64,000 bases of DNA. It comes from Turnera subulata. Its lineage: Eukaryota; Streptophyta; Magnoliopsida; Malpighiales; Passifloraceae. The notes under the pieces are model-generated. The model did not search any database. It was not told the origin of the DNA and saw only the letters and a list, made by a program, of their open reading frames with translations. Each line of letters opens with the position of its first letter. Position 1 is the first letter of the stretch. This document shows positions 4,831-51,345 of this stretch, in pieces. The translations under genes and the position numbers were made by a program. The stretch is taken from the NCBI GenBank assembly GCA_028386065.3, contig JAKUCV010000190.1, positions 132,798 to 196,797 on the forward strand, given 5' to 3'.

Positions 4831-5839
4831 CCCACACATGCAAAAATCAATCCACTACTTTTTATATATAGTATCGCTAATAAAGTTTTTGACATGATGT
4901 TTGGTGATGCATGCTTATATAATTTTATCATTAATATATGAGTACTACTTGACCTACCATTATCATTGCTAATGATTCCTCACATGATATTTGTGGTACC
5001 TCTTACAAGTTATCAGGTTTCTAGAGGCTTCTGTGGTGGCCATATACGCCCCGTGAGGCTCCAACATAAAGGAGGCAACTGATCTCCGACAAAATCTATG
5101 CAGCAATAGAGGATCATTCAAAGAATTCAAAGCTAGGGATGCATTCACCATCAGCGCCGGGGGCTAGAAGCAGGAGAGCTTCCCGACAAAATCAAAGGCC
5201 AAGCCATCAAACGCTTGGGAGGGAAGATCAAATCCCATCAAGCATGTCGCTCGTGGATGCTGGAGTTAATATGACGGCTGCCCAATATGTGTGCACATCA
5301 AAAGCTACCTAATGATAACCTGGAAGATCTAAAAGCAAGTAATGGCGAGCTACCATCAAGGGGAAGCCCAAGGATGAAGCCTGAGAACAAATACCATAAG
5401 CTGCAAACAGCCCCATCGGAGCCACACAACGCAAAGGCCCATAGTCGTGCCACAAAATGCGAAAGGCCCTAGGAATGCTAACACACGAATTGGTGATTTT
5501 TAACTCATGTTATTCTCTGAGCTTCCCTGAGAGAAGGAAGCCTCCGTAAGCTTGCTTAAAGATGAAAACCAGGATGACGTCCCAAGATGGTTCCCAAAGG
5601 TTTCAAACGCCCCAACGGATGCAAGACAAATTAAACCTACCAGGTCCAGTGTGTGCCGCTACAAGGTTACCTATACTGCATCCAGGGTTGTCCTTCGTTG
5701 AACGGGGTTCAGAAAGCCTAAGAGCCATTCAAGAGGATACCAAAGTAGCACTAAAGGCTGCCTTCTTCTTGATGAGGCACCTATTGCCAAAGCTTCACCT
5801 AAAAAATGGTGATATTGCAAAGCCACCGACGTGACCCGT

Positions 5840-6955
5840 GAGTGACCCAAAGCAAGAACCTATTGAGGTTCCAAAACAAAGGCCGGGAGGTGCCCAACAT
5901 AGAAGACCCGTGCAGGGGTTCCCAACGAAGATCCTATTGAGGTTCCCAAACAAAGGCCGGGAGGTGCCCAGCATAGAGAACCCGTTGAGGGGTTCCCATC
6001 GAAGATCCCATTAAGGTTACCAAACAAAGGCTAGGAGGTGCCGTAGATAAGCAGTGGGGTGGTTCCGAACAAAGACCTTATGAAGGTCCTAAGACGAAGG
6101 CCAGAAGGTGCCCAACGTAGAAAACCCATAGAGTGGTTCCCAGCAAAGATCCTATTAAGGATCCAAAACAGAAGCTGGGAGGTGCCCTACGTAAATAACC
6201 CATGGAGTGATTCCCAACAAAGATCCTATTGAGGGTTCAAAACAAAGGCCGAGAGGTAATGTAGAAAACCCATAAAGCGGTTCAAAACAAATATCCTGTT
6301 GAGGTTCCAAAATGAAGGCCAAGAGGTGCCCAGTGTAGATAACACATAGTGGTTCGAAACAGGAACCTACGGAGGTCCCAAAACAAAGGCTGGGAGGCGC
6401 CTAACGTAGATAATCCGTGGGGTGGTTCCAAACAAAGACCTTACGAAGGTCCCAAGACGAAGGCCAGGAGGTGCCCAACATAGATAACCAATAGAGTGGT
6501 TCCCAACAAAGATCCTATTAAGGATCCAAAATAGAAGCCAGGAGGTGCCCTACGTAAATAACCCGTGGAGTGGTTCCCAACAAAGATCCTATTGATTGTC
6601 CAAAACAAAGGCTGAGAGGTGCCCAATGTAGATAACCCGTGGAGTGGTTCCCAACAAAGATCCTATTGAGGGTCCAAAACAAAGGCCAAGAGATGCCCAA
6701 TGTAGATAACCCGTGGAGTGGTTCCCAACAAAGATTCTGTTGAGGTTTCAAAGTGAATACCAGAAGGTGCCCAATGAAGATAAACTATATAGTGGTGCTA
6801 TGGAAGAAACCTCACGGAGGTCCCAAAATGAAGGCTAAGAGGTGCCCAACAAATATCACCCATAGAGTGGTTCCGAACCAAGACTCTAAAGAGGCTCACA
6901 ATGAAAGCCGAAATGTGCCCACCGATGATAACAAATACAATAGTACCCTTTAATC
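5840..6955 (+). repeat. Minisatellite, about 15 diverged units of roughly 70-75 bp
   Basis: A degenerate direct repeat. Each unit reads approximately ggttcccaacaaagatccta, then a gaggt-ccaaaacaaaggc block, then gggaggtgcccaacgtaga and taacccgtggagtg. Units diverge by substitutions and small indels, so the array is older than the one at 4357. Minus-strand open frames in it are repeat artefacts. Confidence 0.85.
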
Positions 6956-7804
6956 GAAGAAGCTTATTCCAACTCAGAGTCAAAGCAGTAAAGGGGCGAA
7001 TTCCCCGAAACCACACACTCGACGTACAAACAAATGACTACCACTTGTGGGGAGCTTAGAGGCGAACAGCTACCCTCCGAGAAAATCCTCACTAAAACTC
7101 ATACAAGGTGTCTGGTTCCTTGAAGATCACAAAGAATAATTTATGTCATGTTTCCACTCAAAACCCATAGCCATGTCCAGTGTTAGGAAGGCTGGGAACT
7201 CCAAGCAATCACTCTAAATGACCAGGCTGGAAGAAGGAAAGCTACCCGAAGATTCCAAATGGTGCAAGAGAAGTTCGGATCCTATCAAAGATGATGAAGT
7301 GTCTTCACAAATATCCTTTCAAATGAACCAATGTCCTTATGGATGCCCATGTAACGCCCCGAATTTTTGGTATTTAATTTCTATGAAGTTTTTGGGATTT
7401 TTGAAATTTTATTTCCAATTTTACCCTCGAGATTTTTCTTTTTCCGGGTTTTTGGTCAAGGAAATTAAATTATTTTCCTTGGAAAATATTCATTTCATTT
7501 TTGTTAGGACTAATGCTTCCATGTTTCATTTCAGGGTTTTGATAATGACAAACTAACCAAAGCTCCATTCATGAATTCATCCCTTGAGGAAAAGCAAAAA
7601 GACATCAATCAATGAAGCACAAGTCTAAGACAAAGGAGTACAAGATTTGAAGCAACAAGGATGAAGATATATATAGAGAGTTCATCTATAGGAAATCCTT
7701 GTAAATGGTAACTCAAGTACTCCAAGTTAATGCTCAAACCAAAAATCATTTTCCTCATGCATTTCATAAATCATGTAAGTCATTAAACTGGTTTTTAAGT
7801 TCTA

Positions 7805-8264
7805 AACATCGATGTTTTTAGAACAACATCGATGTTGCATCAAGTCGATTTCAAAATCTTTTTGGCAGTAGCAAGAAAACATCGATGTTGGATTATAAAA
7901 CATCGATGTTCTTGTGACCGTTGGTCAAAACATCGATGTTTACAATCCAACATCGATGTTCATGAGAACCTGTCTTTGAAACATAATTTTGCCGAAGCCA
8001 AAAAACATCGATGTTGGCCAGTTAAACATCGATGTTGCGCAAAACATCGATGTTTCATTTTCCAACATCGATGTTCTGGCATAGACCCTTTTTCATCATA
8101 TGTTTGCGAAGCCAAAAAACATCGATGTTGCGATGAAGAACATCGATGTTGTGTATGAAAACATCGATGTTCTAAAATGCAACATCGATGTTTTACTAGC
8201 CGTTAGCTCAATTATTTAAATGCAACGGCTAAACATCGATGTTCTTGATGAAAACATCGATGTT
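7805..8264. repeat. Array of eight paired 12-bp palindromes in the 5' LTR
   Basis: Sixteen perfect copies of AACATCGATGTT are arranged as eight pairs. The gap inside each pair is 8 or 9 bp (8,9,8,9,9,9,9,9), so centres lie 20-21 bp apart. Gap sequences all differ. In single-stranded RNA each pair could fold as a 12-bp stem with an 8-9-nt loop; in DNA the two sites would lie on one face of the helix. The array ends about 100 bp upstream of the TATA box. Confidence 0.95.
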
Positions 8265-8360
8265 GTGCCGTTATGGGCAGAAACCTTTTTCAGACAAACA
8301 TGCTAAACTTTCATAAAGGTTTCAGAAATTGTTCCCAATGATCATATGCATCTTTTAGAC

Positions 8361-8368
8361 TATAAATA
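8361..8368 (+). promoter_or_regulatory. TATA box of the 5' LTR promoter
   Basis: TATAAATA within gactataaatagaggcc, about 100 bp downstream of the palindrome array. The same box is present in the 3' LTR at 15004-15011. Between array and TATA lie AACGGCTA and its inverse TAGCCGTT (about 8200-8232), similar to the mitosis-specific activator (MSA) core bound by plant MYB3R factors. That link is inference. Confidence 0.75.
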
Positions 8369-8931
8369 GAGGCCTTAAACCTCATTTTCAGATTGATCAA
8401 CTCACATCTACATTCAAGCATTCTTTGAAAATCATTCAACAAATTTTTGAGCTATAACTTGTGAGAATTCTGAGTTGTTCAATAGAGCTTTCCTTTGTAC
8501 TCATATCCACTCTATTAGAGAGTTTTGCTTGAGAGATTGTAAGTGTTATTCATACACCACAAGGGAGGATTGTTCCCTTGAGAGAAGCCTTAAGGTGTGG
8601 TATCCTTAAGCAAGAGAGTAGGATTCTTGTGATTAGAAATCCTAGAAAGTCTTGAAGTGAGGTATCTTCAAGCAAGTATATTGAGGTTCATGTGACTTGA
8701 ACTCTCAGGTTGTAACGGTTTGTTAAGCACCCGTAAGCTTAACATAGATAGTGAAATCTTCAAGTGAGACTTGAAGGGCTGGATTAGCCACACTAGTAGA
8801 GTGTGTGTGAACCAGGATAAATCTCTTGTGTCCTTCATTCTTTTAATTCCGCATTCAATTCCTGCTTATTTCGTTTTTATTCGATTATCGCTATTCACCC
8901 CCCCTCTAGCGAAGGGATATTGTTCTAACAA

Positions 8932-8945
8932 TTGGTAGCGGAGCC
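8932..8945 (+). promoter_or_regulatory. Primer-binding-like site
   Basis: TTGGTAGCGGAGCC starts two bases after the 5' LTR. It resembles the initiator-Met tRNA complement used by many plant Copia elements (TGGTATCAGAGC), with changes in the middle. The Gypsy element at 47370-54273 has a similar TGGTAGCGGGGC site. Confidence 0.65.
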
Positions 8946-8985
8946 TAACTCTCTGAAAAACTTAACCGTTTGAGAGGTATTATCC

Positions 8986-10203
8986 ATGGCTTTTTCAAGT
9001 AATGTGTTTGCAGGAAACAATGAAGGACAGTCCGTCACCCGTCCACCATTGCTCAATGGCGCCAACTATACATATTGGAAGGAGAGGATGAGAGTCTTTA
9101 TTCAATCCAACAACTTCACTCTCTGGCGGACAATAAAGAACGGAGATCAAATTCCGACAAAGAGAGTTGGTGAAATTATGGTGACTAAGACGGAAGAGGA
9201 GTATGATGCCGAGGACGTCAAGAAAGTTCAAAATAACTTCATGGCAATCAACATACTCCATTGTGCACTTAATCAAGAAGATTACCAGATGATTTCACGA
9301 TGCACTACCGCCAAGGACATTTGGGATATGCTGGAAGTCACCTATGAGGTAACAGAAAGTGATGATGAAACGAACTTTCAATGCCTCATGGCAAAGGAAG
9401 AAGAAGTAGAAGAGGTAAGTGATTCTGAACCTTCTAACCATGATGAATTGCAAAACGCTTTTAATGAATTGTATGCTGAATATATTAAAATCTCTAAGAT
9501 TCATTTAAAGCAAAAGAAACATATTGCTTCATTAGAAAAGAATCTAGAAGAGCTTACCTGTGAAAATGATAAATTGAAGGAAGAAAATAGGACTCTAGGC
9601 ATGCCCAAAGAATGTGAATCATGTAAATCACTATATGAACAAGTCACAGAACTTGAAAGAAAAACTAAGGAGTGTTCCTCATGCAATTCTTTGAAAGAAC
9701 AAAATGAGAAGTTATTATGTGAAAATGAAAAGCTTAGAGAAGAAAACAAGTTTTATGGGAAGAAGAGTGCTAACAAACCGGATAACTTAGGATGCACGAC
9801 ATGTAAACCCTTAAAGAAGCAAGTTGAAAATCTTGAGGCAACATTAAAGAAATTTAGCACCCCTCAGAAAAATTTAAATTCTATGCTAAACAATTTGCAA
9901 TCAACTAAACATGGAATAGGTTTTAGAAACGAACCTAAAAGAACTAAAATCGAGCCTAGGAAGCATAAGGTTCAACCCAAGGGTCACCATGTTAGTAAAG
10001 TGCACAAATATGGACAGCATAATTATTATCAACCTAGATGGATGCACAATCCAAATGTTATTTGCCATTACTGTAATAGAGTAGGACATATTGCTCCTGC
10101 TTGTTTTACTAGGCATAGACATTGGACTCGAAGTGAAGCCTATCGTCATCATGTCCCTAACACTCAAGGACCCAAAGAAATTTGGGTACCAAAAACCCAT
10201 TGA
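8986..10203 (+). CDS. Shortened SIRE-type Gag with coiled coil and zinc knuckle
   Basis: 405 codons. Residues 20-125 match the N-terminal part of the plant Copia Gag (DUF4219/UBN2 type: LLNGANYTYWKERM..., then KKVQNN...WDMLEV). The usual remainder of UBN2 and the first zinc knuckle are missing: residue 120 runs straight into an acidic segment (EEEVEEVSDSE). Residues 150-310 form a heptad-rich coiled coil with repeated CxxC pairs (CESCKS, CSSCNS, CTTCKP). Residues 362-375 form a CCHC knuckle CHYCNRVGHIAPAC. The C-terminus ends IWVPKTH, as in SIRE Gag just before protease, but here pol is absent. It probably coats element RNA and assembles particles, perhaps needing an intact partner Gag. The start is the only ATG in context, close to the primer site. 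Confidence 0.85.
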   Translation: MAFSSNVFAGNNEGQSVTRPPLLNGANYTYWKERMRVFIQSNNFTLWRTIKNGDQIPTKRVGEIMVTKTEEEYDAEDVKKVQNNFMAINILHCALNQEDYQMISRCTTAKDIWDMLEVTYEVTESDDETNFQCLMAKEEEVEEVSDSEPSNHDELQNAFNELYAEYIKISKIHLKQKKHIASLEKNLEELTCENDKLKEENRTLGMPKECESCKSLYEQVTELERKTKECSSCNSLKEQNEKLLCENEKLREENKFYGKKSANKPDNLGCTTCKPLKKQVENLEATLKKFSTPQKNLNSMLNNLQSTKHGIGFRNEPKRTKIEPRKHKVQPKGHHVSKVHKYGQHNYYQPRWMHNPNVICHYCNRVGHIAPACFTRHRHWTRSEAYRHHVPNTQGPKEIWVPKTH

Positions 10204-10335
10204 TTTGTTTTGCAGGTGTGCTTGAAGGCATCAAGTGTACTTTAGTACCTTGATTGCGGATGCTCCAAGCACATAATCAAGGAAGCATCCAAATTCCTAA
10301 TTGATTCTTGGGAAGTAAGCAAGCCGAGACATAAA

Positions 10336-10442
10336 AACATCGATGTTTAGGAGCCAAACATCGATGTTGAGTGGACTTCAACTAGTATCATTCCCAACCG
10401 GCAGCATGAAACATCGATGTTTAGTATCAAAACATCGATGTG
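10336..10442. repeat. Two more palindrome pairs downstream of gag
   Basis: Two pairs of AACATCGATGTT, each with a 9-bp gap. The last half of the second pair is altered at its final bases (AACATCGATGTG). They lie just after the gag stop. Confidence 0.9.
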
Positions 10443-10716
10443 CAGGTAAGTACTCTAAACTTACTAAATTATTAACTTTGATAATTTGCGGTTCATGACA
10501 ATCTCATCATACAAACAAACTAGAGTTTATTGATGTTCATATCTTACAATTTTACGATACAATGACTCTTACGCACACTTTATATTACAATCATACTTAA
10601 TAGCATATATTACAAAGACACATCTGAACATAAAGCATATTACACGTTCACACTTACATATTTGGAAAGACACATACACACAAGATATATATTACAAGCT
10701 CATATTTCTCACATGT
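10443..10716. other. AT-rich spacer, 3' flank of the antisense ORF
   Basis: No coding signal. On the minus strand this is the 3' flank of the 227-codon ORF and contains AT-rich far-upstream/near-upstream-like polyadenylation sequence (for example tgtaatat). Confidence 0.4.
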
Positions 10717-11400
10717 CTATCTATTTGGCTCTGCACTCACTTTAAAGCCACTTGGCTCATTTGTAATGATAACTCTGAGGCTATCATTCCATGAAAACCA
10801 CATGCCTCCAGTGTTATTTTCTCCATGTTTTTCAAAACGGTTGACTGGCGGGAAACGCAAAGGAATAGCGCCATGATGATCACCTTCTTGCCACTGAGTC
10901 TCCGTAAGCAAAACCATATTTGGTTTATACTGGTTTTTGAGGTCTCTCAAAGTACCTGCAAAATCTTGTGAGTGCCTCGCCATACCTCTGCAATTCCACA
11001 CTAGCAACCGAACCTTTGGCCATGTTGGTGACAATCCTCCTACATGAGGCAGACTCCGAGCAAGCATTGAAATCCGATAGTAGATACCTTGCTCAAGATA
11101 TTGGCTGGCCGTCTCCAAGCTAAAATTTTCAAGCCGCTCGGAGATAAAAAACATTACAGAATTAGCAGAACCAAAGTAAGACGTTCTCACCTCACTTTGA
11201 TGTTCCAGGAACATGGTCTCCTCCATTGGAGTAACAAAAAATCTGGATGAGTAAAGCTCATCCACAAATACAAGACGTGGAATTGTACCTAGTATAGGAG
11301 GGAGCTCCTCAGCCGGCTCATTAACCATGCTATATGATAAGCGGTTTCTCCTGCCTTGAGCGGCTCCTAGAACGAAAAACACAGATGAAGGGGAAGGCAT
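10717..11400 (-). CDS. Antisense ORF with partial LINE-like endonuclease domain (copy A)
   Basis: 227 codons, intact, opposite to the host element. A gapless relative lies at 50401-51084 in an unrelated LTR element: about 148 of 227 residues are identical by hand count. Residues 1-125 match nothing I recognise; conserved blocks include PRLV.V.ELYSSRFFVT and SVxFFISERL. Residues 131-220 resemble the N-terminal part of plant LINE AP-endonucleases: LLVWNCRG (with the Asn of the active site), TLRDLKNQYKPNMVLLTETQ (with the metal-binding Glu) and GGMWFSW. The later catalytic Asp/His motifs of that fold are absent, so a working nuclease is unlikely. A TATA box lies about 75 bp upstream. Codon 151-170 comparison with copy B shows only synonymous change. 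Function unknown; RNA binding, silencing interference or structural roles are possible but unsupported. Confidence 0.85.
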   Translation of the reverse strand: MPSPSSVFFVLGAAQGRRNRLSYSMVNEPAEELPPILGTIPRLVFVDELYSSRFFVTPMEETMFLEHQSEVRTSYFGSANSVMFFISERLENFSLETASQYLEQGIYYRISMLARSLPHVGGLSPTWPKVRLLVWNCRGMARHSQDFAGTLRDLKNQYKPNMVLLTETQWQEGDHHGAIPLRFPPVNRFEKHGENNTGGMWFSWNDSLRVIITNEPSGFKVSAEPNR

Positions 11401-11472
11401 TTCTACTCTTGATATTTTCTTCTCCTTGATTATGGCTTATTCTCTATGTGTTGTGCATTCTAATTCTCTGCC

Positions 11473-11482
11473 TTTTATAAAA
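11473..11482 (-). promoter_or_regulatory. TATA box upstream of antisense ORF copy A
   Basis: TTTTATAAAA on the minus strand, about 75 bp before the ATG at 11400, with an AT-rich leader. Spacing suits a short 5' UTR. This promoter faces away from the palindrome array at 11947-12461. Confidence 0.6.
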
Positions 11483-11946
11483 CCAAGGACTCGACATTTT
11501 ACTCACAAGGGCAGACCCCTACCACATCTGCCAGAGCTTAAGAAATACCTCGACAAATAGAAACGCCAATTTCATTATTACTAACCGCCAAATTCTCAAC
11601 TAATCAAAAATCTGCTTTGTTGAAAATCTTAGCCTAGCATTGCATTATTGATTTAACACGGGATTTAATGTCTATTTAGCTAGCTATCGGAGGCTATCAA
11701 AGTCCAACCGACAAGACAATTTCTCGAGCCCGGTGCACTGACGACAAGAAGAAAATGTCTTTTAGCGGCAGAGGGATACTTACCACCTCTTGAAATTGTC
11801 ACACATGTTTTCATCACCATAATTCATGTATTATTCATAGCTAATTTGAGCACCCGAGGCTCTACTAAATCTGTTTTGTAGGGACAGCTCGATTCGGACG
11901 ACAAGCACAGTTGAACAAGCAAGGACCTTACTAAGCAAATAGTGAA
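11483..11946. other. Intergenic region between divergent units
   Basis: Non-coding spacer between the antisense ORF promoter and the internal palindrome array. I see no feature beyond AT-rich sequence. Confidence 0.4.
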
Positions 11947-12461
11947 AACATCGATGTTCCACTGACCAACATCGATGTTGGATGCATCACACAAGTGGCC
12001 GAATGACAAAAACATCGATGTTTAGTATCGAAACATCGATGTTCAGGTAAGTCTTTCAAATTCTTCCTCATAACATCGATGTTCAAAACACCCAACATCG
12101 ATGTTTGCACGTATGCGTTGATTTTCAAAAATGTCGAGTGCTAAAAACATCGATGTTTTTGACACCAACATCGATGTTTAACCATAGTGCTTAACCATCA
12201 GATTGGCAGTATACCAACAACATCGATGTTTTCGTACAAACATCGATGTTTGCAAAAATGGGTCTTTTAGCCGAGAGCAAAAAACATCGATGTTTCAGTT
12301 AAAACATCGATGTTGGGAAGTTACCGTTTAAAAATATAGCCGTTGGTCCCAAAAACATCGATGTTCTCTGAAAAACATCGATGTTGAAACGTTACAGTTT
12401 TAAAAAAATATAGCCGTTGGGGAGCCTCAACATCGATGTTTTGGGTGAAAACATCGATGTT
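11947..12461. repeat. Internal array of eight paired 12-bp palindromes
   Basis: Sixteen perfect AACATCGATGTT sites in eight pairs with gaps of 9, 9, 10, 9, 8, 8, 8 and 9 bp. Gap sequences differ from those in the LTRs, so spacing is preserved without sequence copying. The array lies between the divergent antisense ORF and the 418-codon ORF and ends 55 bp before the latter's TATA box. TAGCCGTT motifs are interspersed and an inverted CTAGCCGTT/AACGGCTAG pair follows (12476-12502). Confidence 0.95.
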
Positions 12462-12515
12462 GTGTCGTTAAAAACTAGCCGTTACTGCTCACAACGGCTA
12501 GCTTTTTGGCTCCTC

Positions 12516-12523
12516 TATAAAAA
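12516..12523 (+). promoter_or_regulatory. Internal TATA box for the 418-codon ORF
   Basis: TATAAAAA within tcctctataaaaactc, about 120 bp before the ATG, followed by a CT-rich leader (tcttctccttctcacc...) typical of plant 5' UTRs. Placement directly after the palindrome array parallels the LTR promoter. Confidence 0.7.
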
Positions 12524-12638
12524 CTCAAACTTTTTCTTCTCCTTCTCACCTACAATCTGATTCTCTTCATCCTTTGCATAATCTTCATACAACCTTCTCT
12601 CCTCTTTTGCTTGAATTCTTCTCCCTTTCCTAAACACC

Positions 12639-13895
12639 ATGGCTAGTAGAAGAAGCTCTAAAGGCAAAGATCCTCTTCAAGAGCATCCCACCAAGAGAAG
12701 AAGCTCATCTAGCTCTGGGAACCAATACCCTGTGGAAGGAACTCATATCTGGTTCACTTCCCGTTCACAGCTAAATCGATACAACACCCTCTTTGCCAAA
12801 AGAATCATTGCACCTCCTAGATATCTACCTGCTGAATATCCACAAGAAAAGCAATACACAAACCTACCCAGACTTCTTCAACAATCCCACCTTTGGGAGT
12901 TTGTCACCAGAAGCAGACATGAGTTCAATGCCGACTCCATCTGGGCATTCTACTCGACATTAACTCGGGAAGGAGAGGTTCTATCTGCTCAAATCAATGG
13001 AAAGGTCATCCAACTCACCTTGGAGCAATTCGGTGCATTCGCAAAATTGCCCGTCCAAGGGCACGATATATCCGGCTATGGGGGAGATCATTTTCTTACT
13101 CAGTATGAGATTCCTCTTCTTGCCGAGCTTGGCATCACAGAAGTAAAGAGGAATCGTTCCGGCCGTCCCACCATTCATTCGATTAATCCGGAATATCGTG
13201 TGCTGTTCTATCTTGTCACCCGTGTGATCAAACCACGAGCAGGGAGTCACACCACCATGACCATTGAAGACGAGAAGATTCTTCACGCCATTCTACACGG
13301 TGCACCCATTAATTGGGGACGACTCGTTTTCATGCACATGGCGGAACAGGCCAACACCGAACATCCACTGCCCTATGCGTTTCTGGTCACCGATATTCTG
13401 CTTAGCGCAGGTCTTAATCCGTTGGAAGACACCCTCACCACGGCAGCCAAGTCTTGGGCAATATCCGATGCCACATTCAGAACCGGACAAGCTGCTGAGG
13501 GAGCTCAACCGCCTCACCAACCCGCAGAGCAACAAGCCGAAGCATCTCAAGCAGGCTCTTTCCTTGCTCTTCCTGCACCTGCTCCTCGACCTCCTGGCGC
13601 TACCCTCGACTCAATTGCGGCCACTCTACGCAGCTTAGGAAGGTCAATTGAAAGAATCGACATAGAAGTACAAAGGCAAGGACATGACCTGCGTGCCTAT
13701 TTTGATCACATCAACTACAATCCTCCACCATACTACCAAGGTTACGATTTTGGTGGTAATGAGGATGATAATGATGATGAGGAGGATGAGGACTATGCTC
13801 CCATGGACATTGAGCAAGAAGAAGATGATGAAGAAGATGAAGACCATGAGGATAATAATGATGATGATGATGATGACCTTAGCCCATCCTTTTAG
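12639..13895 (+). CDS. Plant transposon-associated protein with acidic tail
   Basis: 418 codons, intact, Kozak-like accATGG start. Residues 5-30 are basic and Ser-rich (KRRSSSSSG), possibly a nuclear signal. Residues 45-275 match my knowledge of the 'putative plant transposon protein' domain (Pfam Transposase_32 type): RYNTLFAKR near the start, LTLEQFGAFAKLP, then a YLVTRVI...MTIEDEKILHAIL block and HPLPYAFLVTDIL. Residues 280-350 are Gln/Pro/Ala-rich. The last 60 residues are extremely acidic (runs of Asp and Glu). This domain is usually found in plant repeat elements and its biochemistry is not established; the name does not prove transposase activity. It has its own promoter and the same orientation as the element, taking the place of pol. 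Confidence 0.82.
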   Translation: MASRRSSKGKDPLQEHPTKRRSSSSSGNQYPVEGTHIWFTSRSQLNRYNTLFAKRIIAPPRYLPAEYPQEKQYTNLPRLLQQSHLWEFVTRSRHEFNADSIWAFYSTLTREGEVLSAQINGKVIQLTLEQFGAFAKLPVQGHDISGYGGDHFLTQYEIPLLAELGITEVKRNRSGRPTIHSINPEYRVLFYLVTRVIKPRAGSHTTMTIEDEKILHAILHGAPINWGRLVFMHMAEQANTEHPLPYAFLVTDILLSAGLNPLEDTLTTAAKSWAISDATFRTGQAAEGAQPPHQPAEQQAEASQAGSFLALPAPAPRPPGATLDSIAATLRSLGRSIERIDIEVQRQGHDLRAYFDHINYNPPPYYQGYDFGGNEDDNDDEEDEDYAPMDIEQEEDDEEDEDHEDNNDDDDDDLSPSF

Positions 13896-14126
13896 GATTT
13901 TGTTTTTGCTTTGTTTAAATTTATGTCTTCCATGTCTTATCTTTTAAATTGAATCAAATGCTTCTTATTCTTGTTTCTTTTTGCTAATGACAAAAGGGGG
14001 AAAATAATCAAGTAAGTATATGCACCAAGTCAGGGGGAATCATAAATTGAAAAGTTGAAAAATATAGGGGGAATTAATCTCCTTAAAGAACTCATAAAAC
14101 TTGGCATATACTAACATGAGTTTGTC
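13896..14126 (+). other. 3' untranslated region of the element
   Basis: T-rich tail followed by several ggggga purine clusters (acaaaagggggaaaa, tcagggggaatc, tatagggggaatt), resembling repeated secondary polypurine tracts found near the 3' end of SIRE-type elements. Confidence 0.5.
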
Positions 14127-14146
14127 ATTATCAAAAAGGGGGAAAT
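14127..14146 (+). promoter_or_regulatory. Polypurine tract
   Basis: Ends aaaaagggggaaat immediately before the 3' LTR. The upstream tttgtcattatc is typical of SIRE-like Copia elements; the same phrase in inverse form stands at 56860-56890 beside the SIRE-like LTR. Confidence 0.85.
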
Positions 14147-15573
14147 TGTTAGGACTAATGCTTCCATGTTTCATTTCAGGGTTTTGATAATGACAAACTA
14201 ACCAAAGCTCCATTCATGAATTCATTCCTTGAAGAAAAGCAAAAAGACATCAATCAATGAAGCACAAGTCTAAGACAAAGGAGTACAAGATTTGAAGCAA
14301 CAAGGATGAAGATATATAGAGAGTTCATCTATAGGAAATCCTTGTAAATGGTAACTCAAGTACTCCAAGTTAATGCTCAAACCAAAAATCATTTTCCTCA
14401 TGCATTTCATAAATCATGTAAGTCATAAAACTGGTTTTTGAGTTCAAAACATCGATGTTCTTAGAACAACATCGATGTTGCATCAAGTCGATTTTAAAAT
14501 CTTTTTGGCAGTAGCAAGAAAACATCGATGTTGGATTATAAAACATCGATGTTCTTGTGACCGTTGGTCAAAACATCGATGTTTACAATCCAACATCGAT
14601 GTTCATGAAAACCTGTCTTTGAAATAAAATTTTGCCGAAGCCAAAAAACATCGATGTTGGCCAACTAAACATCGATGTTTCACAAAACATCGATGTTTCA
14701 TTTTCCAACATCGATGTTCTGGCAAAGACCCTTTTTCATCATATTTTTGCGAAGCCAAAAAACATCGATGTTGCGATGAAGAACATCGATGTTGTGTATG
14801 AAAACATCGATGTTCTAAAATGCAACATCGATGTTTTACTAGCCGTTGGCTCAATTATTTAAATGCAACGGCTAAACATCGATGTTCTTGATCAAAACAT
14901 CGATGTTGTGCCGTTATGGGCAGAAACCTTTTTCAGACAAACATGCTAAACTTTCATAAAGGTTTCAGAAATTGTTCCCAATGATCATATGCATCTTTTA
15001 GACTATAAATAGAGGCCTTAAACCTCATTTTCAGATTGATCAACTCACATCTACATTCAAGCATTCTTTGAAAATCATTCAACAAATTTTTGAGCTATAA
15101 CTTGTGAGAATTCTGAGTTGTTCAATAGAGCTTTCCTTTGTACTCATATCCACTCTATTAGAGAGTTTTGCTTGAGAGATTGTAAGTGTTATTCATACAC
15201 CACAAGGGAGGATTGTTCCCTTGAGAGAAGCCTTAAGGTGTGGTATCCTTAAGCAAGAGAGTAGGATTCTTGTGATTAGAAATCCTAGAAAGTCTTGAAG
15301 TGAGGTATCTTCAAGCAAGTATATTGAGGTTCATGTGACTTGAACTCTCAGGTTGTAACGGTTTGTTAAGCACCCGTAAGCTTAACATAGATAGTGAAAT
15401 CTTCAAGTGAGACTTGAAGGGCTGGATTAGCCACACTAGTAGAGTGTGTGTGAACCAGGATAAATCTCGTGTGTCCTTCATTCTTTTAATTCCGCATTCA
15501 ATTCCTGCTTATTTCGTTTTTATTCGATTATCGCTATTCACCCCCCCTCTAGCGAAGGGATATTGTTCTAACA
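14147..15573 (+). repeat. 3' LTR of the non-autonomous Copia-type element
   Basis: 1,427 bp, near-identical to 7502-8930. It includes a second palindrome array (14448-14907: eight pairs, sixteen perfect sites) and TATA box (15004-15011). Confidence 0.93.
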
Positions 15574-22188: not shown

Positions 22189-25100
22189 TGAAGCACCCCG
22201 ACCTAAACTTACCCTACATACAGTATTTACTGAACAACAGTGCCGACACGTTGCACAAACAGTAAATACATCCAGAAATCCGGCCCAACGACCCAATGTC
22301 AATATCATAGCACTCGACTTTGGGAATCTCAATAACAACATTAGCACAGCGGAAGCATTTATAATCTTATAAACAACATATGCAAAACTCCAAATGCAAA
22401 TTAATGGATCCGAGTCCTGCCCGAGGGGTACACAGCAGCTTGCCCCGTGCGTTCCTGCACTACAACAACTCAACCTACGGGATGAAACCCCGCAGACGAG
22501 GGGTGAGTCCGAAGTGCTCACCGACGAAGGGTAAACAGAGATATATAATCAACCATAATACTTTCGAAGTAAATACAGGCAAAGACAATACAAAGAATCT
22601 ACCATAACACGACTGAGCCAAGACCAATACAATATTTATTATTATTACCAATTTTATCTTCCGGGCCCCGTCACTGGACAAGCTAGGGTCGTACCTGGTT
22701 ATTAACTAATTCTGGATGCCAGGCCTAACCACAATCCGGGATCAACATCCCAATATCACAAATTCGGGATCAACATCCCAATATCTCAAATCCGGGATCA
22801 ACATCCCAATATCACAAAAAATCCGGGATCAACATCCCAATATCACAAATCCGGGATCAACATCCCAATCAACCAACCCACCGGCCATGACACCACAAAA
22901 CTAGTCTCTAACCATCTAGTCGTACCTCTACTTTCCAAGTGATAATTATATCATCTCAACTACAGTCCAATTCCATTACTCTTTCACCAGTTATCCAATT
23001 TTCTAATTTCCTCAGATTAATCCACAATCTCATTCAATCAACAATCTCATATCACCAATTATTCAAAACTAACAGTTCAACAATATTTCCAACACAACAT
23101 ACACAGGTCTGACACGATTCAACAACAACATCAACAATTCCATAGCAATCAGGTAACAGTCAACAATTATTCCAGCAGATCAATCTAACAACAAAAATAC
23201 ACAAACAACAAAGATACACACACAGCATTACGGGCACATATCAAGGTTTATCCATCCTCACCTGATGTGTCTCTGAAACTGCTATCCGGTCAAACCTCGA
23301 TACCCTATATGCATATATAGGAACACAATAATCACTTATAATGCACAACAAAAATGACTATGCATGATACCGGTTTAACTGTTATTCTACGGCTTATCTG
23401 TTCGTTTCATTATCTCCATAATTATCTTATTACCAAACAGTTCTTCCAACTTGGTGGTAATTAATTTAATCCTGCGGTTATATCAAGTGTACTTGATTAA
23501 ATCAAAAAAAACTGAAACCGAGCGCCCAAGTTGATATCCCGGCCCTTAGGTCACTTATAATAGGAAAATACATATATACACAAATACGTTATATAAATTA
23601 TATACAGAAAATTATATTTAATAAATAAATTAAATCATGACCCATACTCGTGGTCTACTCAATACTAAATAATATTTCATAAGATATTTATCCTTGATAA
23701 AATTAATAATAAATATATACATTTAGTAATCGGGGTTTATAAAATAGTGAAGATAATTAAATACATAAATAAAGTACCAAACAATTTTGTTAATTAAAAC
23801 CCTTTAAGTAAAATAAAAAGAATTAGTTTTGTTGACAATAATTTAGCTTAGCTTGATCATATGGTATAAAATAATTGTATCGTAATGTTACAAAAGTGAT
23901 ACTTATAATTCCATATATACTTATATACCGTTAATTATGAAATAACAGAGATAATAAAATTAACGAGTGAATGATATAATTGTTAGTAAAATAATGCGGT
24001 TTAGTATTTTACCATAGTAATTCCATTATAAGACATAATGTAGCCGTAAAAATAATTTCTACGATTTATATGATAAGCCTTATAAACACAAAATTATTTA
24101 TAATGAATTATATTTGTAATCGGGAAAAATTATGACCCGCATTTATATATAGGTGTACTTTTATATATATACGCTAAAAGAAGTATCTATTGTATAACAT
24201 ATATATGTATATAATTAGTAAATCACATGTAATCGTAAATATAAGTACGTTTATAGAATTAAGTAAAATTATAGCGTAGTATTACCTTATACATTGAGAT
24301 AATTGTAATATGATTTACATATATATATGTTTATATATACGTATATGAGAGTGAAATCAATAAATAAGATATGATTTGGGTCTACCATTATTAAACGTAA
24401 TTAAAGAAATTCTCAAAATTAGGCTCGGTAGGCCTTCACGATTGTTTAGCCCACGGAGGATAATTCTGTTAACAATATAATTTGAGAATTAAAGGACATA
24501 ATTAAAATGAATAGCATCATGGGCCTTTTATTAATTAGCCCAGATAAAATTAAACGACTAAAAATTAATATACCTTTCTAACAGCCCAATTAAAATTAAA
24601 AGCATGATTAAATAAATAAAGGAAGCATAATTAAAAGTAAAACAAGGACATCATACCCACAACTCCCCCCCCTCGGCAACAACCCAACAACAACCAAACG
24701 GACACGATTAGCCAATCCAACCGAATAGATTGAAGGAGGAGGAAGAAAGCAAGGGGAGAAGGGAAAGGATTGTCTTTGGGTCTTACCCACACATCACGTG
24801 GCAGACGACGGCGAGTAGCAGGAGAAGAACAGAGGAGATTTGGCCGGCGACGGCTTGGAGAGGAAGAGACAGCAGCGGCAACAGCTGTGGGACGAAGGCA
24901 GCGATCAGAGGCAGATCGACCGACCTGGGGCGAGGAGAGGTCGGGACCGGACGGCGGCGCTTTCTCTGCCTCAACGGTGGCTGCGAGCAGAGGCGGCAGA
25001 GGGAGAAGAGGAGGGTGTGGCAGCGACTGGTCGAGGGGAAAGGATGAGGGCGGCGGCGTCTTGGTGACGGCGAGGAGGATGAGGAGGCAGCTGTTGAGGA

Positions 25101-26870: not shown

Positions 26871-28267
26871 TTAAGTGTGATCGATTGGCTTCATCCCTAA
26901 AGGTAAAACACTTGGGTTTGGGGTAGCAAACTCGAGGAATTCGGGATCACGTTCCAGTATATTCATTGTAGCTTCATCTATTATCATCCATGCCTCAAGG
27001 TCCTCTCCATTCTGTCCAATCTCTTTTAAGAAGGTGAGATTATTCAAAACTGGACCAACTCCTCCTAAGACACCAACCCATATAGGCTTTCCCCATCCGA
27101 AATCAAAATCATTGAGGGCCCATGTTAACCCAACTTGAGATGATAGACATTGACGGTTGCATGGACAAAAGCTGTGGTATACTAGGTCTGCAGTCTCGGA
27201 TGCCGCTTGATGCCTTCCTTCACCTTCAAAATTGCTCAAGAACTCGGCGTTGACCTTTGCAATAGCTTCTCTGGTTAAGGCAACCAAGCCATCCAATCCC
27301 ACCCGATCTGTGTCAGCCAGGTTACAAATTGCAGCTGCATAGGACAAAATATTCCCAATAGAATCTTTTGCCAAGGGAGGGGCTGTTCTCTGCCTTACGT
27401 TTACAGTGAGGCTTGGCACAGAAAGTCTTGGAGAATCTGATATCTTCCTAGCAGCTGAAGACAAGGCTTTCCAAACGAAGGAGGGGACTGTTTCGACGCG
27501 AGACGGATTATCCACGCGTTCACTTCTTGCCTTTTGCCTTAGCGTAGCAATCGCCTTGGCGTAGAAAACGTATCTCTTAACAGAAAAATTTGTCTCGTAA
27601 GACCAAATCTTCATCATCTTCGATGGTATATCAGTTCGCAGTGATGACTCTTAAATGGGGGGGAAACGCAATGGTCCCTGCAAAAGTCTAGGAATATCTA
27701 TAGCCTTGGAGATGGGTACTGCCCTGGTGTGATTGGCTGTCCAGTATCTGAGGAAAGCAGTTGCACTAGATATATACATCAATGATGTCATGCATGAAGG
27801 ATAAAGCGAGTGCTATCCCGCCACACTTGAAAGTGTTGAGCTGTACAGATACTTGAGCTCTTGTTTGTTTCTCTGATAAAAGGGTAAATGGAGGGTATGG
27901 GAGGAACTGATTCAACATGTTTATTTGAGGCCGGTGTTGAAGAAAATCAGACAAAAGGATATTCACTTTGGTTTCTGTGAATGAAACACCCTCTTCATAG
28001 CTGTCTATGTATAAGTTGTCTTTTACTCTCCCACTGAAAGATATAGTATGTGGATAGAGTTTGTGAAAGTGATCTTTTAAGTTGAGCTGAAATTTCTGAA
28101 ATGTTTGACTGTGTATCACTCATTTGGTAGAAAAGGATGATCGGAAAACTAAAATTTTGGGGGCAAAGTTGGTCCAGAAGGGAAAGCTTGAATGGTTTTG
28201 GATGGGGGACATCCAGGGAAGAGGGCTTGATGATTTCTTTTGAAATGAATTCAACCTCCATATTCAA
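26871..28267 (-). pseudogene. BAHD acyltransferase pseudogene
   Basis: BAHD enzymes transfer acyl groups from CoA thioesters to alcohols or amines in plant specialised metabolism, in the cytosol. Reading leftwards from 28267: an N-terminus VEFISKEIIKPSS...FKLSLLDQL; a one-base frameshift near 28045; then GRVKDNLYID; the HxxxD motif (HDIID, about 27780-27800) still intact; a second frameshift near 27770; a stop near 27655; then 248 open codons (26871-27617) with DFGWGKP (about 27085-27105) and the family ending PEFLEFATPNPSVL. Both catalytic and structural motifs survive, but at least three lesions break the frame. It has no visible intron. The clade resembles vinorine-synthase-type members of asterids and other eudicots; substrate cannot be told. 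Confidence 0.88.
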
Positions 28268-47369: not shown

Positions 47370-48533
47370 TGAAACACCCCGACCCGTATTTACCGTACAC
47401 AGTAAACACGTGCCGGAACTGTGACGACCCAACCATACAAAGCCCAGGATACAGTGTATACAACAGAAATTCGGGCTCAACAGCCCAAAATAAAAACATC
47501 AATAACGTCATAATCAGCCCAATGGCCCAACAATAGCAAAAGTAGCACAGCGGAAGACTTAATAACTCACAAAGACACTGTATGCGACACATGATGCAAA
47601 CTATGGATCCAAGTCCTGTCCAAGGGATAACGCCGCAACATGTCTGGAATGCATCAAACCTGAACCACAAATAACTCATCCTATGGGATGAAAGCCCGTA
47701 GGTGAGGGGTGAGTCCGAAGTGCTCACAACCATGGATAGACGATCAATATGCAACAGTAAAATTACTCAAGGCGAAAACACAGGCATAACAGCCCAACCA
47801 AAATGAAACAATCCAAAAGACTCGACCTAAAACTAGTGCAAGACCAAAAAAAAGACTAAAACAAAAATCCAATTTTCCAATTTTATCTTTCCGGGCCCAG
47901 TCACGGATAAGCTAGGGGTCAGACCTGGTTCTCAACATATTTCGGGTGCCAGACCAAATCCAAGAGAACCCAGGGATCGACATCCCAAAAATAAGAACCC
48001 AGGGATAGACATCCCAAATATAATCACGGGATAGACATCCCAAGCATAGACATGCTTTTCACAAGTAACCCAGGTCATGGCCACCACAAAATAGTCTTAA
48101 ACCATCGAGTCGTACCACTACTTAAAAATAAAACAACTCAACCCGGCCGCGACCCGCCCAGATGAGTCGGATCCTTACCTTAGGAACGGCGGCGGCGGCG
48201 TGACAACGCGAAGAAAGTTTGCGCGGGCAAGAGGCGACGCTGGCGACTCCAAGGGCGGTGGAAAGGCGGCGCGAGGCGTCACGGTGGCTGAGCAGAGCGG
48301 AGGAGAAGCAGATCCACGGGTCTGCTCGCGGGTCAACAACGCATTGCGGCGTGTCGGCAGGCGGAAGAGGCTGGTGGCGGCGGTGCAGCGAACGGCGGCT
48401 TGGAACTCCTCCTGGTGAACAGTAGCAGGGGGAGGCTCCGGGGTGACGACAGTTCATCCTTTTTTTTCTCTTTTTTTCATTTTTTTTCTATTTTCTTTCT
48501 TTTTCTGATTTTCTTTTTCCATTTTCTGTATTT

Positions 48534-48565
<32 letters not shown>

Positions 48566-49098
48566 CTTTCTTTTTTTTCCTCCATTTTTCCTGGTTTCTT
48601 TTTTTTTCTCTTTTCATTTTTTTTCTCTTTTTTCTTTTCTTCTCTTTCTTTTTTTTTTTCCTTTCCTTTTTTCTCTCTTTTTTTTTTCTTTCTCTCTTTT
48701 TTTTCTTGTCCTCTCTTTTCCTTTTTCTTCTCCTCTCTTCCTCCCCTTCTCCTTTCCTGCTTCTGATTATAAAGAAGAAGAAAAAACTGTTCAGCCTGTG
48801 ACGTTCAATAATGCAGCTTGTTTGCATTATGGAGCGAGTCCGGTCCGGACCAGAAAATAATTGATACCCCCTTAGTTATTTTCCGGTGTGATTTTTCAAA
48901 GATTCCGGGACCCGAAAAATACCGTCTTAAGCCCAAAAAATGCACGGAAAAATCACGAGCGCGGGAAAACCCTCGGTTACGAAAAATGATGCCCGATTTA
49001 CCTTGAATTAATTACCGAAGATTAATTCAACGGTAAATCACGGTAAAAAGACTTTTACAGTCCCGGTAAAAATCCAAATTTTTACCCAGGCTGTTACA
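47370..49098 (-). repeat. 3' LTR (left copy), internally deleted
   Basis: 1,729 bp against 2,928 bp for the other LTR. The main deletion (about 1.17 kb) joins gtaccactactta to aaaataaaacaactc near 48124. Smaller gaps occur near 48145 (lost cacccatgggagg) and near 48365. It contains GGGATnGACATCCC motifs (47975-48045) and a homopyrimidine tract (48463-48760). Confidence 0.9.
48463..48760 (+). repeat. Homopyrimidine tract in the left LTR
   Basis: About 300 bp of almost pure T and C on the plus strand (purine on the element's sense strand). The longer LTR has the equivalent at 53648-53935. Long Phe/Ser/Leu ORFs across it are compositional. Confidence 0.9.
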
Positions 49099-49140
49099 AT
49101 CTACCCACCTTAAAAAGAATTTCGTCCCCGAAATTCCGTC
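49099..49140 (-). promoter_or_regulatory. Polypurine tract and 3' end signature
   Basis: On the minus strand: a GGGACGAAATT phrase followed by ctttttaaggtgggtagat, ending at the LTR. This is the usual 3' end of plant Gypsy (chromovirus) pol regions, which shows that the element derives from a once complete Gypsy. Confidence 0.8.
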
Positions 49141-49242
49141 TTATCCGTGTGTCCCACCACGATAAGCTCCTAGCACACTCTGCCAGGTGTCCAAACTCAA
49201 CCCAAGATACCGCTTATACCCTTAATCGACATCTCCTCCGCT

Positions 49243-49250
49243 TATAAATA
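49243..49250 (+). promoter_or_regulatory. TATA box for the 64-codon antisense ORF
   Basis: TATAAATA, 35 bp before the ATG at 49285, giving a very short leader. Confidence 0.55.
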
Positions 49251-49284
49251 CCAATCCTCATAACTGAGACACTCACTCTCAGCC

Positions 49285-49479
49285 ATGGACTCTCCACTAA
49301 GATCAAGAACTACCTCAGACTCCGAGAACAACAGCTACATCGGTGGCACTGCTTTCCCGACAAGCTCCTATGAAGAACCGCCAAAGAAGCGCTTCAAGAC
49401 AAACATCATCGGCCTGAAAGAGCTGAGGATCGAAAGGGTAAAGCAACGGCTGAAAGCAGCACTCCACTGCAGACACTGA
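49285..49479 (+). CDS. Small basic protein, function unknown
   Basis: 64 codons, ATGG start with gccATGG context. The N-terminus is Ser/Thr-rich (RSRTTSDSEN), followed by a nuclear-localisation-like PPKKRFK and a basic amphipathic C-terminus (ELRIERVKQRLKAALHCRH). I do not recognise it. It is antisense to the Gypsy element, has its own TATA box, and AATAAA-like sequence follows (about 49571-49584). The short length means it could still be chance. Confidence 0.45.
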   Translation: MDSPLRSRTTSDSENNSYIGGTAFPTSSYEEPPKKRFKTNIIGLKELRIERVKQRLKAALHCRH

Positions 49480-49499
49480 CGCAACTGAACACTTCACTG

Positions 49500-50282
49500 A
49501 AGAAGATCAGCTCGGCGGTGATGCAGATAGAACTGGCGTGCGCGGAACTCTTTCTCCGTATTGTAAAACCGTTATGAATAAATAAAATAAGTTTTCTTTT
49601 AAAATCAAAACTCTTATGTTTCGAAGTCTTATGTTAAACAGAAAATCAAAACATCTCAAAGCAAACAAAAATCATCAATAAGAATATAAAATCAATCATA
49701 AAGAGATTAAAAACAAAATTCGTTTAACAAAACCAAAACATAAAGAAGTTATAACAAAAACATATTTCATGATCGGCGCTCTAGGTCGACAGTAGACATC
49801 CTCGATCCCGAGAAACGTGACATGCACAGCTAACGGTGACGTCAGTTTTCCTCGTGAAAAAGACGTCCGTTAACTCGCAAGGCGATGATCACGAGAGCGT
49901 CCTGTCTCCCTTGATAGAAACGTTATCCACTTGTCCACAAATTCCGCATAAGCTAAAAACGTCTGTCAAGTCTCGTATCCCTCCATGATGTCCGAACAGG
50001 TGTAAGCTAGTCGCACATACGCTCTACTCGAGGTATGGTCCCATCGGTCTAGCCTCAACGGTCACAGATGCATGTGATAAAAGATGCAGGAAAAAGTCTT
50101 AAAGAGAATAAAACAAAGTAGCCAAGGTGGTAGAAAATCATAAGATGGAAAAGAGCTGAAAAATACTGGCATTTGTAGCCCGAAAAACGTATAAAGTGAT
50201 GAAGTAATAAATGAAGCAACGGCAAAATTTTCAAAAAGCAAAATCTTGAAAATCGAAAACAGTAATCACGCTCCCATAAGAG
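49500..50282 (+). other. Spacer between the two antisense ORFs
   Basis: AT-rich after 49560, with no ORF recognised. The part at 49770-50060 is richer in GC and may be upstream promoter sequence for the 227-codon ORF. Confidence 0.4.
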
Positions 50283-50290
50283 TATAAAAG
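50283..50290 (+). promoter_or_regulatory. TATA box for antisense ORF copy B
   Basis: TATAAAAG, about 110 bp before the ATG at 50401, with an A-rich leader that has no upstream ATG that I see close to the start. Confidence 0.6.
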
Positions 50291-50400
50291 ACGGAGCGGT
50301 GAAGTGTAAATCATCAAAAGTATTTAAAAGCAAGTTTGTAACACGTTTAGAAAAATAAACACAAACACGTTCAGTATAAACACAAAATCACCAAGTCAGA

Positions 50401-51084
50401 ATGCCTGCTCCATCATCCGTCTTCTTCGTCGAAGGTGCCAACCTAGGCAGAAGAAACCGGCTGGCCTACAGCATGATCAACGAGCATCCAGAGGAACTAC
50501 CGAACAAGCTCGGCAGAATGCCCCGTCTGGTCTCCGTCGAAGAACTCTACTCCTCCAGATTCTTCGTCACTTCCATGGGAGAGACGTTCTTCCTAAAGGA
50601 CCATGGCACTCTAAAGACCTCCTTCTATGGCTCGGCCAACTCCGTCGTGTTTTTCATCTCTGAAAGACTTCAGGAGTTCAACCTAGAGTCCACTTGCCAT
50701 TCCCTAGAGCAAGGTACCTACTATCAGCTCTCAATGATAGCCCAGAGCATGCCCAGAGTATCACGGTTACCAACAACTTGGCCAAAGGCCCGACTACTGG
50801 TGTGGAACTGCAGAGGAGTCGCTAGGCGTTCCCAGGAGTTCTTGCGTACCCTGAGGGACCTGAAGAACCAGTACAAGCCCAACATGGTTCTTCTCACGGA
50901 GACCCAGTGGCAGCCTGAAGACAATCACAGTCCCATCCCACTTCGGTTCCCTCAAGCAAACTGGTTCGAGCTTCCTGGCCAGGACAACAGGGGCGGCATG
51001 TGGTTCTCGTGGAGCAACAGCATCCAAGTCAACATCAACAATGACCCCAACAGCTTCAGGGTCAACGTCATTCCAAGGCGATGA
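50401..51084 (+). CDS. Antisense ORF with partial LINE-like endonuclease domain (copy B)
   Basis: 227 codons, intact, gapless relative of 10717-11400. Shared blocks: RRNRL.YSM, ELYSSRFFVT, GSANSV.FFISERL, TWPK.RLLVWNCRG and LRDLKNQYKPNMVLLTETQW, GGMWFSW. Its codons prefer G/C in third position, unlike copy A, yet the protein is conserved; at 50851-50910 against 10891-10950 there are 12 nucleotide changes and no amino-acid change. The endonuclease-like part retains the early Asn and Glu but lacks the later catalytic motifs. It is antisense to its Gypsy host, as copy A is to its Copia-type host. A termination-like AT-rich tail follows (tgtaatatttatg). Confidence 0.87.
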   Translation: MPAPSSVFFVEGANLGRRNRLAYSMINEHPEELPNKLGRMPRLVSVEELYSSRFFVTSMGETFFLKDHGTLKTSFYGSANSVVFFISERLQEFNLESTCHSLEQGTYYQLSMIAQSMPRVSRLPTTWPKARLLVWNCRGVARRSQEFLRTLRDLKNQYKPNMVLLTETQWQPEDNHSPIPLRFPQANWFELPGQDNRGGMWFSWSNSIQVNINNDPNSFRVNVIPRR

Positions 51085-51325
51085 ATGTACTTTTTTAAAA
51101 AAAAAAATATCAATGTAATATTTATGTTTTTAGTAATATTACTAATATTTATATTTCCGCTTATTTATGGCATCATTTACCTCTTATGTGAATGTTCTGC
51201 GACAGCTGGCATCCCTTGACTGGATCCATAATGCACTAACTAAAATGACATAAAATAATAAACAAATAGAGCGAATTATGCAAACAAGAACAACAAACAC
51301 ACAAAGACTGCCCAACAAGACCTAA

Positions 51326-51345
51326 CGCTCGCCCCGCTACCAAAA
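51326..51345 (-). promoter_or_regulatory. Primer-binding-like site of the Gypsy element
   Basis: Minus strand TTTTGGTAGCGGGGCGAGCG directly after the 5' LTR end (GGCGTTTCA). It resembles the initiator-Met complement and the site of the Copia-type element at 8932. Confidence 0.65.

Follow-up and report, generated by a model that had tools for sequence, protein, structure and literature searches.

The 64,000-nt stretch of Turnera subulata DNA analysed here (assembly GCA_028386065.3, contig JAKUCV010000190.1, positions 132,798 to 196,797 of the forward strand; hereafter the window) contains two long terminal repeat (LTR) elements, E1 and E2, which host two members of one family of antisense open reading frames (ORFs), named aORF1. 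An earlier note on the window had placed the two copies in a Copia-type and a Gypsy-type element, both devoid of pol, and had proposed that the ORFs are under purifying selection. The features of the two elements, in the order of their coordinates, are as follows.

7502-15573, plus strand: E1, whole element, with a target site duplication (TSD) ATTTT read by eye from the flanks
7502-8930, plus strand: E1 5' LTR, 98.67% identical to 14147-15573, bearing 16 palindromes ACATCGATGT
8932-8944, plus strand: primer binding site (PBS)-like TTGGTAGCGGAGC of E1, in the sequence adjoining the LTR end
8986-10203, plus strand: gag-like ORF of E1, Copia type (PF14223, 27 bits at a cut-off of 27)
10717-11400, minus strand: aORF1 of E1, open, 227 codons
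10744-11004, minus strand: residues 133-219 of E1 aORF1, first part of an APE endonuclease domain of the long interspersed nuclear element (LINE) type (PF03372, sub-threshold)
11005-11400, minus strand: residues 1-132 of E1 aORF1, N-terminal region, no family match
11471-11479, minus strand: TATA box TATAAAAGG of E1 aORF1, at -79
11947-12461, no strand: palindrome array, 16 copies, ahead of the sense ORF at 12639-13895
12639-13895, plus strand: Transposase_32 ORF of E1 (PF20167, E 6.9e-15), between aORF1 and the 3' LTR
13992-14145, plus strand: four purine-tract copies resembling polypurine tracts (PPTs), ahead of the E1 3' LTR
14147-15573, plus strand: E1 3' LTR, paired with the 5' LTR
47370-54273, minus strand: E2, whole element, with TSD ATAAC read by eye from the flanks
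47370-49098, minus strand: E2 3' LTR, about 1.2 kb shorter than the other LTR
49099-49129, minus strand: PPT region of E2, adjoining the LTR start TGTAACA
49243-49252, plus strand: TATA box TATAAATACC of a further ORF, aORF2, at -42
49285-49479, plus strand: aORF2 of E2, 64 codons, shortened
50283-50291, plus strand: TATA box TATAAAAGA of E2 aORF1, at -118
50401-51084, plus strand: aORF1 of E2, open, 227 codons
50797-51042, plus strand: residues 133-214 of E2 aORF1, LINE APE-like (PF03372, E 0.0022, below the cut-off)
51346-54273, minus strand: E2 5' LTR, from repeat comparison, with TSD ATAAC outside it

What does the comparison of the two copies tell about their history? Both frames are uninterrupted on the strands listed and both run antisense to the host element, as had been claimed, and the hand count of 148 identical residues out of 227 is the figure that BLASTP returns for an end-to-end alignment with 180 similar residues and no gaps. 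The reported contrast in codons 151-170, with 12 nucleotide differences and identical peptides, was reproduced. Over the 684-nt frames the copies are 77, 82 and 37% identical at first, second and third codon positions, corresponding to 52, 40 and 143 differences in the 227 sense codons (chi-square p = 1e-27). At fourfold-degenerate sites of codons for the same residue, 17 of 67 are identical against 21% expected from composition; synonymous sites between the copies are saturated. The dN is 0.21-0.22, and dS is 2.5 by maximum likelihood (ML) and undefined by NG86. The sole strong DNA match between the regions of E1 and E2 measures 676 bp and coincides with aORF1. The relation between the two ORFs is old and protein-coding and does not reflect a recent exchange between both elements: because synonymous change is saturated and the flanks are unrelated, a single recent recombination, an origin that the earlier note had considered, did not create the pair. 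In composition, E2 aORF1 is an outlier: its third-position GC is 0.68, and the other eight ORFs of the window for which it was determined lie at 0.34-0.50. Its third-position skews and those of E1 aORF1 share the sign of their own element's flanks, with small magnitudes, and in E1 the gag ORF disagrees on both skews and the Transposase_32 ORF on one. We considered whether these skews prove that each ORF has long resided in its element and rejected this, the effect being small; CpG content led to no conclusion.

E1 holds 52 copies of the palindrome ACATCGATGT where 0.009 would be expected; each LTR has 16 of them and two spacers have the other 20, at 7805-8264, 10336-10450 (four copies), 11947-12461 and 14448-14907; none falls into the three ORFs of E1 and none lies elsewhere in the window. 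Successive distances are 20-22 bp in 28 of 51 cases, and a genome-wide count of the paired motif AACATCGATGTT N6-12 AACATCGATGTT gives 31,022 places, compared with 15 for a control pattern. A TATAAAA also lies about 120 bp upstream of the Transposase_32 ORF (12639-13895). Because multiple PPTs and a palindromic motif match the marks of Sireviruses in PMC2829016, E1 is read as a Sirevirus-like element without detected pol.

The two LTRs of E2 align in three parts that are 97.1, 93.4 and 93.6% identical, with about 1.2 kb (52076-53297) present in one of them only. They contain eight copies of the imperfect palindrome GGGATNNACATCCC (47973-48041, 51950-52308), which recurs five times at 22738-22866, within and beside a region that is 69% identical to the E2 LTR. 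Eleven consecutive A occupy 51097-51107, starting 12 bp past the stop of E2 aORF1. Neither gag nor pol was matched in E2 by Pfam or by tblastn with four pol queries, and the same four queries found no pol in E1, in line with the earlier note. The PPT junction of E2 is conserved in nine stretches of the genome (L014, L016, L020, L029, which is E2 itself, L033, L034, L035, L037 and L039; L numbers denote genome stretches outside the window unless so equated). The Gypsy label of E2 rests on this PPT/LTR junction, which may be like that of Tekay/Del elements, Gypsy chromoviruses; the label is unproven. Chromodomain places are present in the genome. Since the PBS-like sequence of E2, TGGTAGCGGGGC, is similar to that of the Sirevirus-like E1, TGGTAGCGGAGC, the claim that the family crosses superfamilies stays unproven. 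Thus, the Copia label of the earlier note holds for E1, by a gag match at the cut-off, and the Gypsy label finds no gag or pol match in E2; what stands of a family spanning Copia and Gypsy is its presence in several different LTR types.

This presence became apparent from searches of the whole assembly (518.7 Mb, 7125 contigs). The E1 copy has at least 150 relatives: the 150 scored of 7858 first-look candidates all reach E <= 4.2e-106, with 14 at 93-100% identity including the window's own, one at 76% and the rest at 70-74%, and 134 of them are free of internal stops by hand count. The E2 copy likewise has at least 150, the 150 scored of 8126 candidates all showing E <= 4.6e-132 and 85-100% identity, about 101 of them without a stop (hand count). 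One place was noticed in both lists, so that the distinct places scored number about 300; with 150 of roughly 8,000 first-look candidates scored per query, all these copy numbers are lower bounds. No relatives were found in a protein database or in viral or prokaryote contigs, collections that seem to have few plant sequences, so that this has no bearing on novelty; PHROGs returned nothing for the query P0001, and for P0002 a single family without a name, at E 0.45.

To characterize the hosts, we examined 22 loci, namely E1, E2 and 20 fetched stretches, 18 of them of 10 kb. Flanking direct repeats, read as LTRs, are present in 14 of the 22, both window elements included, and from LTR repeats, gag matches and junctions four host types were distinguished. 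Type A bears a Copia-type gag and comprises E1 and L009-L012; homologues of the Transposase_32 ORF of E1 occur in L009, L010 and L012, and none was found in L011. Type G (L015 and L023) also has a Copia-type gag, with another set of neighbouring genes. Type C is the E2 type, with LTR pairs in E2, L020 and L021, L014 being assigned by its junction and L016 and L017 by the ORF only. Type D has LTRs of about 200-250 bp in elements of 6.2-6.7 kb with ends like TGTTATAA...TTATAACA and a PPT-like AAGGGGGAGTG on the strand opposite to aORF1; it includes L013, L019 and L024-L028, as well as L018 and L022 by the ORF only, and a script identified TSDs in L019, L026 and L027. Further open frames were listed for four type D copies. 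Two type D stretches, L024 (2672-3187) and L026 (2667-3017), have similar second open frames of 172 and 117 codons, upstream of aORF1 and on the same strand. No gag was matched in type C or D hosts, and no pol was found inside any host by tblastn with a Copia reverse transcriptase (RT) piece, Copia integrase, Gypsy RT and Gypsy RNase H. Two Gypsy RT matches, one beyond the repeat of L015 and the other close to the L022 end, are taken to be neighbouring elements. In all 18 loci whose orientation can be read from the gag strand or the PPT/PBS side, aORF1 is antisense to its host; the remaining four are L016, L017, L018 and L022. An ML tree was built from 45 intact coding sequences, all different; 25 had no host label, and L014, L016, L017 and L022 were labelled by ORF similarity. 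It resolves types A (with L012), G, D and C as four well-supported arms, but not their branching order.

Purifying selection, as claimed for the window pair, is evident from its saturated third and preserved first and second positions, and it recurs inside the host types. Pooled within-type pN/pS, obtained from chosen pairs, ranges from 0.15 to 0.33 and is not near 1: it is 0.33 in type A (two independent pairs, p 2e-4), 0.18 in G, 0.17 in C and 0.15 in D. The C and D copies come from lists ranked by protein similarity, and their values are biased low because such ranking lowers dN, whereas type A is free of this bias down to 70% identity. Single comparisons of E1 with L011 and L010 give 0.15 and 0.16. 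Within types the N- and C-terminal halves behave alike (pN/pS 0.17; residues 1-125, 0.17). Over the 49 listed pairs with dS between 0 and 0.6, omega is 0.00-0.33; this list leaves out L001-L007 and L016 on account of length, and pairs whose dS was zero, undefined or at least 0.6.

The TATA boxes that the earlier note had assigned to the two ORFs are present, as TATAAAAG at -79 (E1) and -118 (E2) from the ATG, and belong to a wider pattern. In 18 of 22 copies, TATAAA[AT] precedes the start of aORF1 by 66-120 bp (5/5 in type A, 2/2 in G, 5/6 in C and 6/9 in D), and a looser TATA consensus is found at 0.17 per 100 bp in the 22 loci. The second ORF, aORF2, is open in its full form of 127-133 residues in the Copia gag hosts L015 and L023 and in L014 of the E2 type, and shortened in L020. 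TATA[AT]A stands at -42 in all six loci bearing it. The copy in L016 reaches the end of the stretch and adjoins a junction some 5 kb away from the L016 aORF1, a distance because of which we assign it to a neighbouring copy; a search of L017, L021 and the stretches of types A and D found no aORF2. Judged by eye, its product has basic stretches and a coiled-coil-like end. The sequence around aORF1 was compared between types with one copy of each. Upstream of the ORF, two segments are common to C and G (478 bp at 64% and 201 bp at 70% identity) and one to C and D (108 bp at 73%). Between A and G the common sequence is downstream, 500 bp at 80% that extend into gag; upstream these two have short matches only, which are taken to be repeat arrays. 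Type G thus links the gag-bearing elements to the E2 type, as expected under cassette exchange. Palindrome arrays are found in type A and G hosts, with a further 12 copies in the L014 stretch, and none occurs in the nine type D stretches. They may be regarded as candidate binding sites for an element-encoded or a host factor, by analogy with the VANC system (PMC5735166); no link between the arrays and aORF1 was found.

By profile comparisons, the C-terminal part of the aORF1 protein is derived from a LINE APE/EEP endonuclease and breaks off ahead of the remaining active-site positions. A hidden Markov model built from the genome's own LINE APE regions (18 of 20; L079 and L080, with shorter open frames, were left out) matches residues 133-219 in all 42 proteins of the unique aORF1 set, from which copies with stops and identical proteins had been removed, and hhalign relates aORF1 to the LINE APE with a probability of 97.8. 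The alignment stops at LINE position 75-85 of about 214, and in 29 of 30 copies a stop codon directly follows codon 227; a complete EEP/LINE APE domain is absent from aORF1, the later and larger portion of the domain being gone. Kept are N136 and E167, which we take to be active-site positions of the APE/EEP family; the later catalytic residues fall outside the alignment. Scanned against Pfam at E 0.01, 37 members yielded PF03372 only, without Transposase_28 (PF04195), and residues 1-132 have no Pfam match. Sequence searches of the PDB gave nothing for P0001 at E 10 and one weak unrelated match for A1. AlphaFold models are weak (pLDDT 29.8 with two sequences, 48.8 with 37), and Foldseek, run on its own, found no match below E 0.001.

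Taken together, we consider it probable that aORF1 is an accessory gene which apparently non-autonomous LTR families have exchanged and whose product acts in trans. It would be transcribed antisense from its own TATA promoter and then translated, and since this promoter is its own, integrated copies could express it without relying on the promoter in the LTR. The product would be a chimera of an unclassified N-terminal region of some 130 residues and roughly the first 85 residues of a LINE APE/EEP domain, accompanied in two host types by aORF2, and selection would preserve it for the elements' own spread. As the rest of the APE domain is missing, aORF1 most likely acts as a regulator that binds nucleic acids or proteins and is no nuclease. 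The most likely specific action, which we propose only tentatively and hold to be less probable than not, is that of a trans-acting nuclear factor aiding transcription or mobilisation of pol-less elements, for instance through relief from silencing or through access to the replication machinery that autonomous partners provide; nuclear location, binding and an effect on transposition would all have to be assumed. A more elaborate version appears doubtful to us. In it, an exchangeable antisense cassette of aORF1, joined by aORF2 in two host types, would have spread between unrelated LTR families without pol, possibly across Copia and Gypsy; the aORF1 protein would have an EEP fold of LINE endonuclease origin, circularly permuted and without catalytic activity, and would serve non-autonomous elements in trans as an anti-silencing or mobilisation factor. 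Here residues 44-80 would continue from the end of the LINE-like part (135-213). Weighing against the permutation are an hhalign probability of 0.4, a score that is matched by 67 of 300 column shuffles, and by 5 of 300 when score and location are taken together, and a permuted LINE profile that gave no longer alignment.

The rival that we take most seriously, a real possibility though short of an even chance, concerns the hosts. If E2-type elements were Sirevirus derivatives with replaced LTRs, all hosts would be Copia, and the family would be widespread but not cross-superfamily. Beyond the resemblance of the PBS-like sequences TGGTAGCGGGGC and TGGTAGCGGAGC, this reading can draw on the aORF1, upstream sequence and aORF2 that the E2 type has in common with the Copia-gag type G. 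However, the LTRs and PPT of the E2 type are unlike those of E1, and its PPT junction is presumably of the Tekay/Del chromovirus kind. A different origin, which we judge unlikely, would be a host gene family captured separately by different LTR elements, the selection between E1 and E2 having acted on the host gene. Captured genes are known in plant LTR elements (PMC7264820), and the outlying third-position GC of E2 aORF1 counts in favour of this origin. Yet purifying selection is found inside each host type too, at low divergence; the copies group by host type in the ORF tree; and 14 of 22 loci have an LTR-like repeat, although copies outside LTR elements were not exhaustively searched for. 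The skews shared with the flanks argue in the same direction, weakly, given the partial disagreement of the other E1 ORFs.

The LINE-derived C-terminal part, the end of E1-E2 similarity at the ORF and the A-run behind E2 aORF1 could suggest that aORF1 is a small nested LINE-derived transposable element inserted into several LTR elements. We find this very unlikely, as an A-run of at least 7 within 120 bp past the stop exists in only 2 of 22 copies (E2 and L015), the 18 readable copies are all antisense, each host type has one clade, the TATA box keeps a similar distance across copies, and one type C/type G pair is homologous far past the ORF. A poly-A tail was accordingly rejected as a retrocopy sign. 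Finally, the coding capacity could be incidental to an antisense unit that makes a regulatory antisense RNA or small interfering RNA, and antisense promoters with regulatory RNA have been discussed for plant elements (PMC7264820). The selection on codons, with saturated third positions, preserved first and second positions and pN/pS of 0.15-0.33, makes this the most improbable of the readings. Apart from the two elements, the window contains many diverged direct repeats (5834-6948), an open frame for the C-terminal half of a transferase-family protein (26871-27650, PF02458 positions 222-433), and a Copia-type element on the minus strand (gag, integrase, RVT_2) that is interrupted by 965 N (59656-60620).

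How does aORF1 relate to known systems? Antisense ORFs are an established kind of gene in plant LTR elements (PMC7264820; PMC11963269), with Grande gene23, RIRE2, Retand ORF4 and PvRetro13 ORF2 as examples (PMC7264820), and the origin of most of them was unknown as of 2020 (PMC7264820). aORF1 resembles these in its antisense orientation, its many copies and its function that is not known, and Grande gene23 has a promoter of its own as well. However, the known antisense ORFs lie between pol and the 3' LTR (PMC7264820), whereas the hosts of aORF1 have no detected pol; and where PMC7264820 describes them as without similarity to other transposable elements or viruses, aORF1 spans LTR types and is a counter-example, being in part LINE-derived. 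Compared with the LINE APE itself, the aligned residues 133-219 come without the remainder of the domain and without reverse transcriptase, and follow a different N-terminal region. The Retand-type antisense protein TRP28 has PF04195, which aORF1 does not match. Neither a LINE-derived antisense ORF nor one common to Copia and Gypsy appeared in the literature searched. A large survey of extra ORFs used a cut-off of 250 codons (PMC6317226), and a family of 227 codons may therefore have been missed there. What emerges is one antisense gene kept by selection in several LTR families without detected pol, with its promoter box in place, so that the function of an accessory gene becomes a testable question in one genome with many copies.

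The closest parallel for the sharing itself comes from bdelloid rotifers, where types of ORF3 are common to LTR and Penelope-like elements and have been read as gene sharing (PMC5408684). Like aORF1, this is one ORF family in very different retroelements; unlike aORF1, it is found in an animal, as a third ORF beside gag and pol, and encodes GDSL or DEDDy proteins (PMC5408684). For E1, the relevant comparison is with Sireviruses, which are marked by multiple PPTs and by repeats of a palindromic motif, both within the LTR and ahead of the ORF that takes the env position (PMC2829016). E1 shares both marks in its 52 palindromes in LTRs and linker and its four PPT-like copies, and the motif of Tnd-1, ACAATCGATTGT, has the same ATCGAT core (PMC2829016). 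Its linker and 3' LTR together hold 36 motifs, against at most 32 in the Sireviruses of PMC2829016, and its motif is without the CGG-CCG core that 12 of the 13 motifs described there possess. It also differs in that no pol was found in it and in bearing aORF1. In combining an element-encoded protein with arrays of a short motif in non-coding regions, E1 is reminiscent of the VANDAL DNA transposons with their VANC anti-silencing proteins (PMC5735166).
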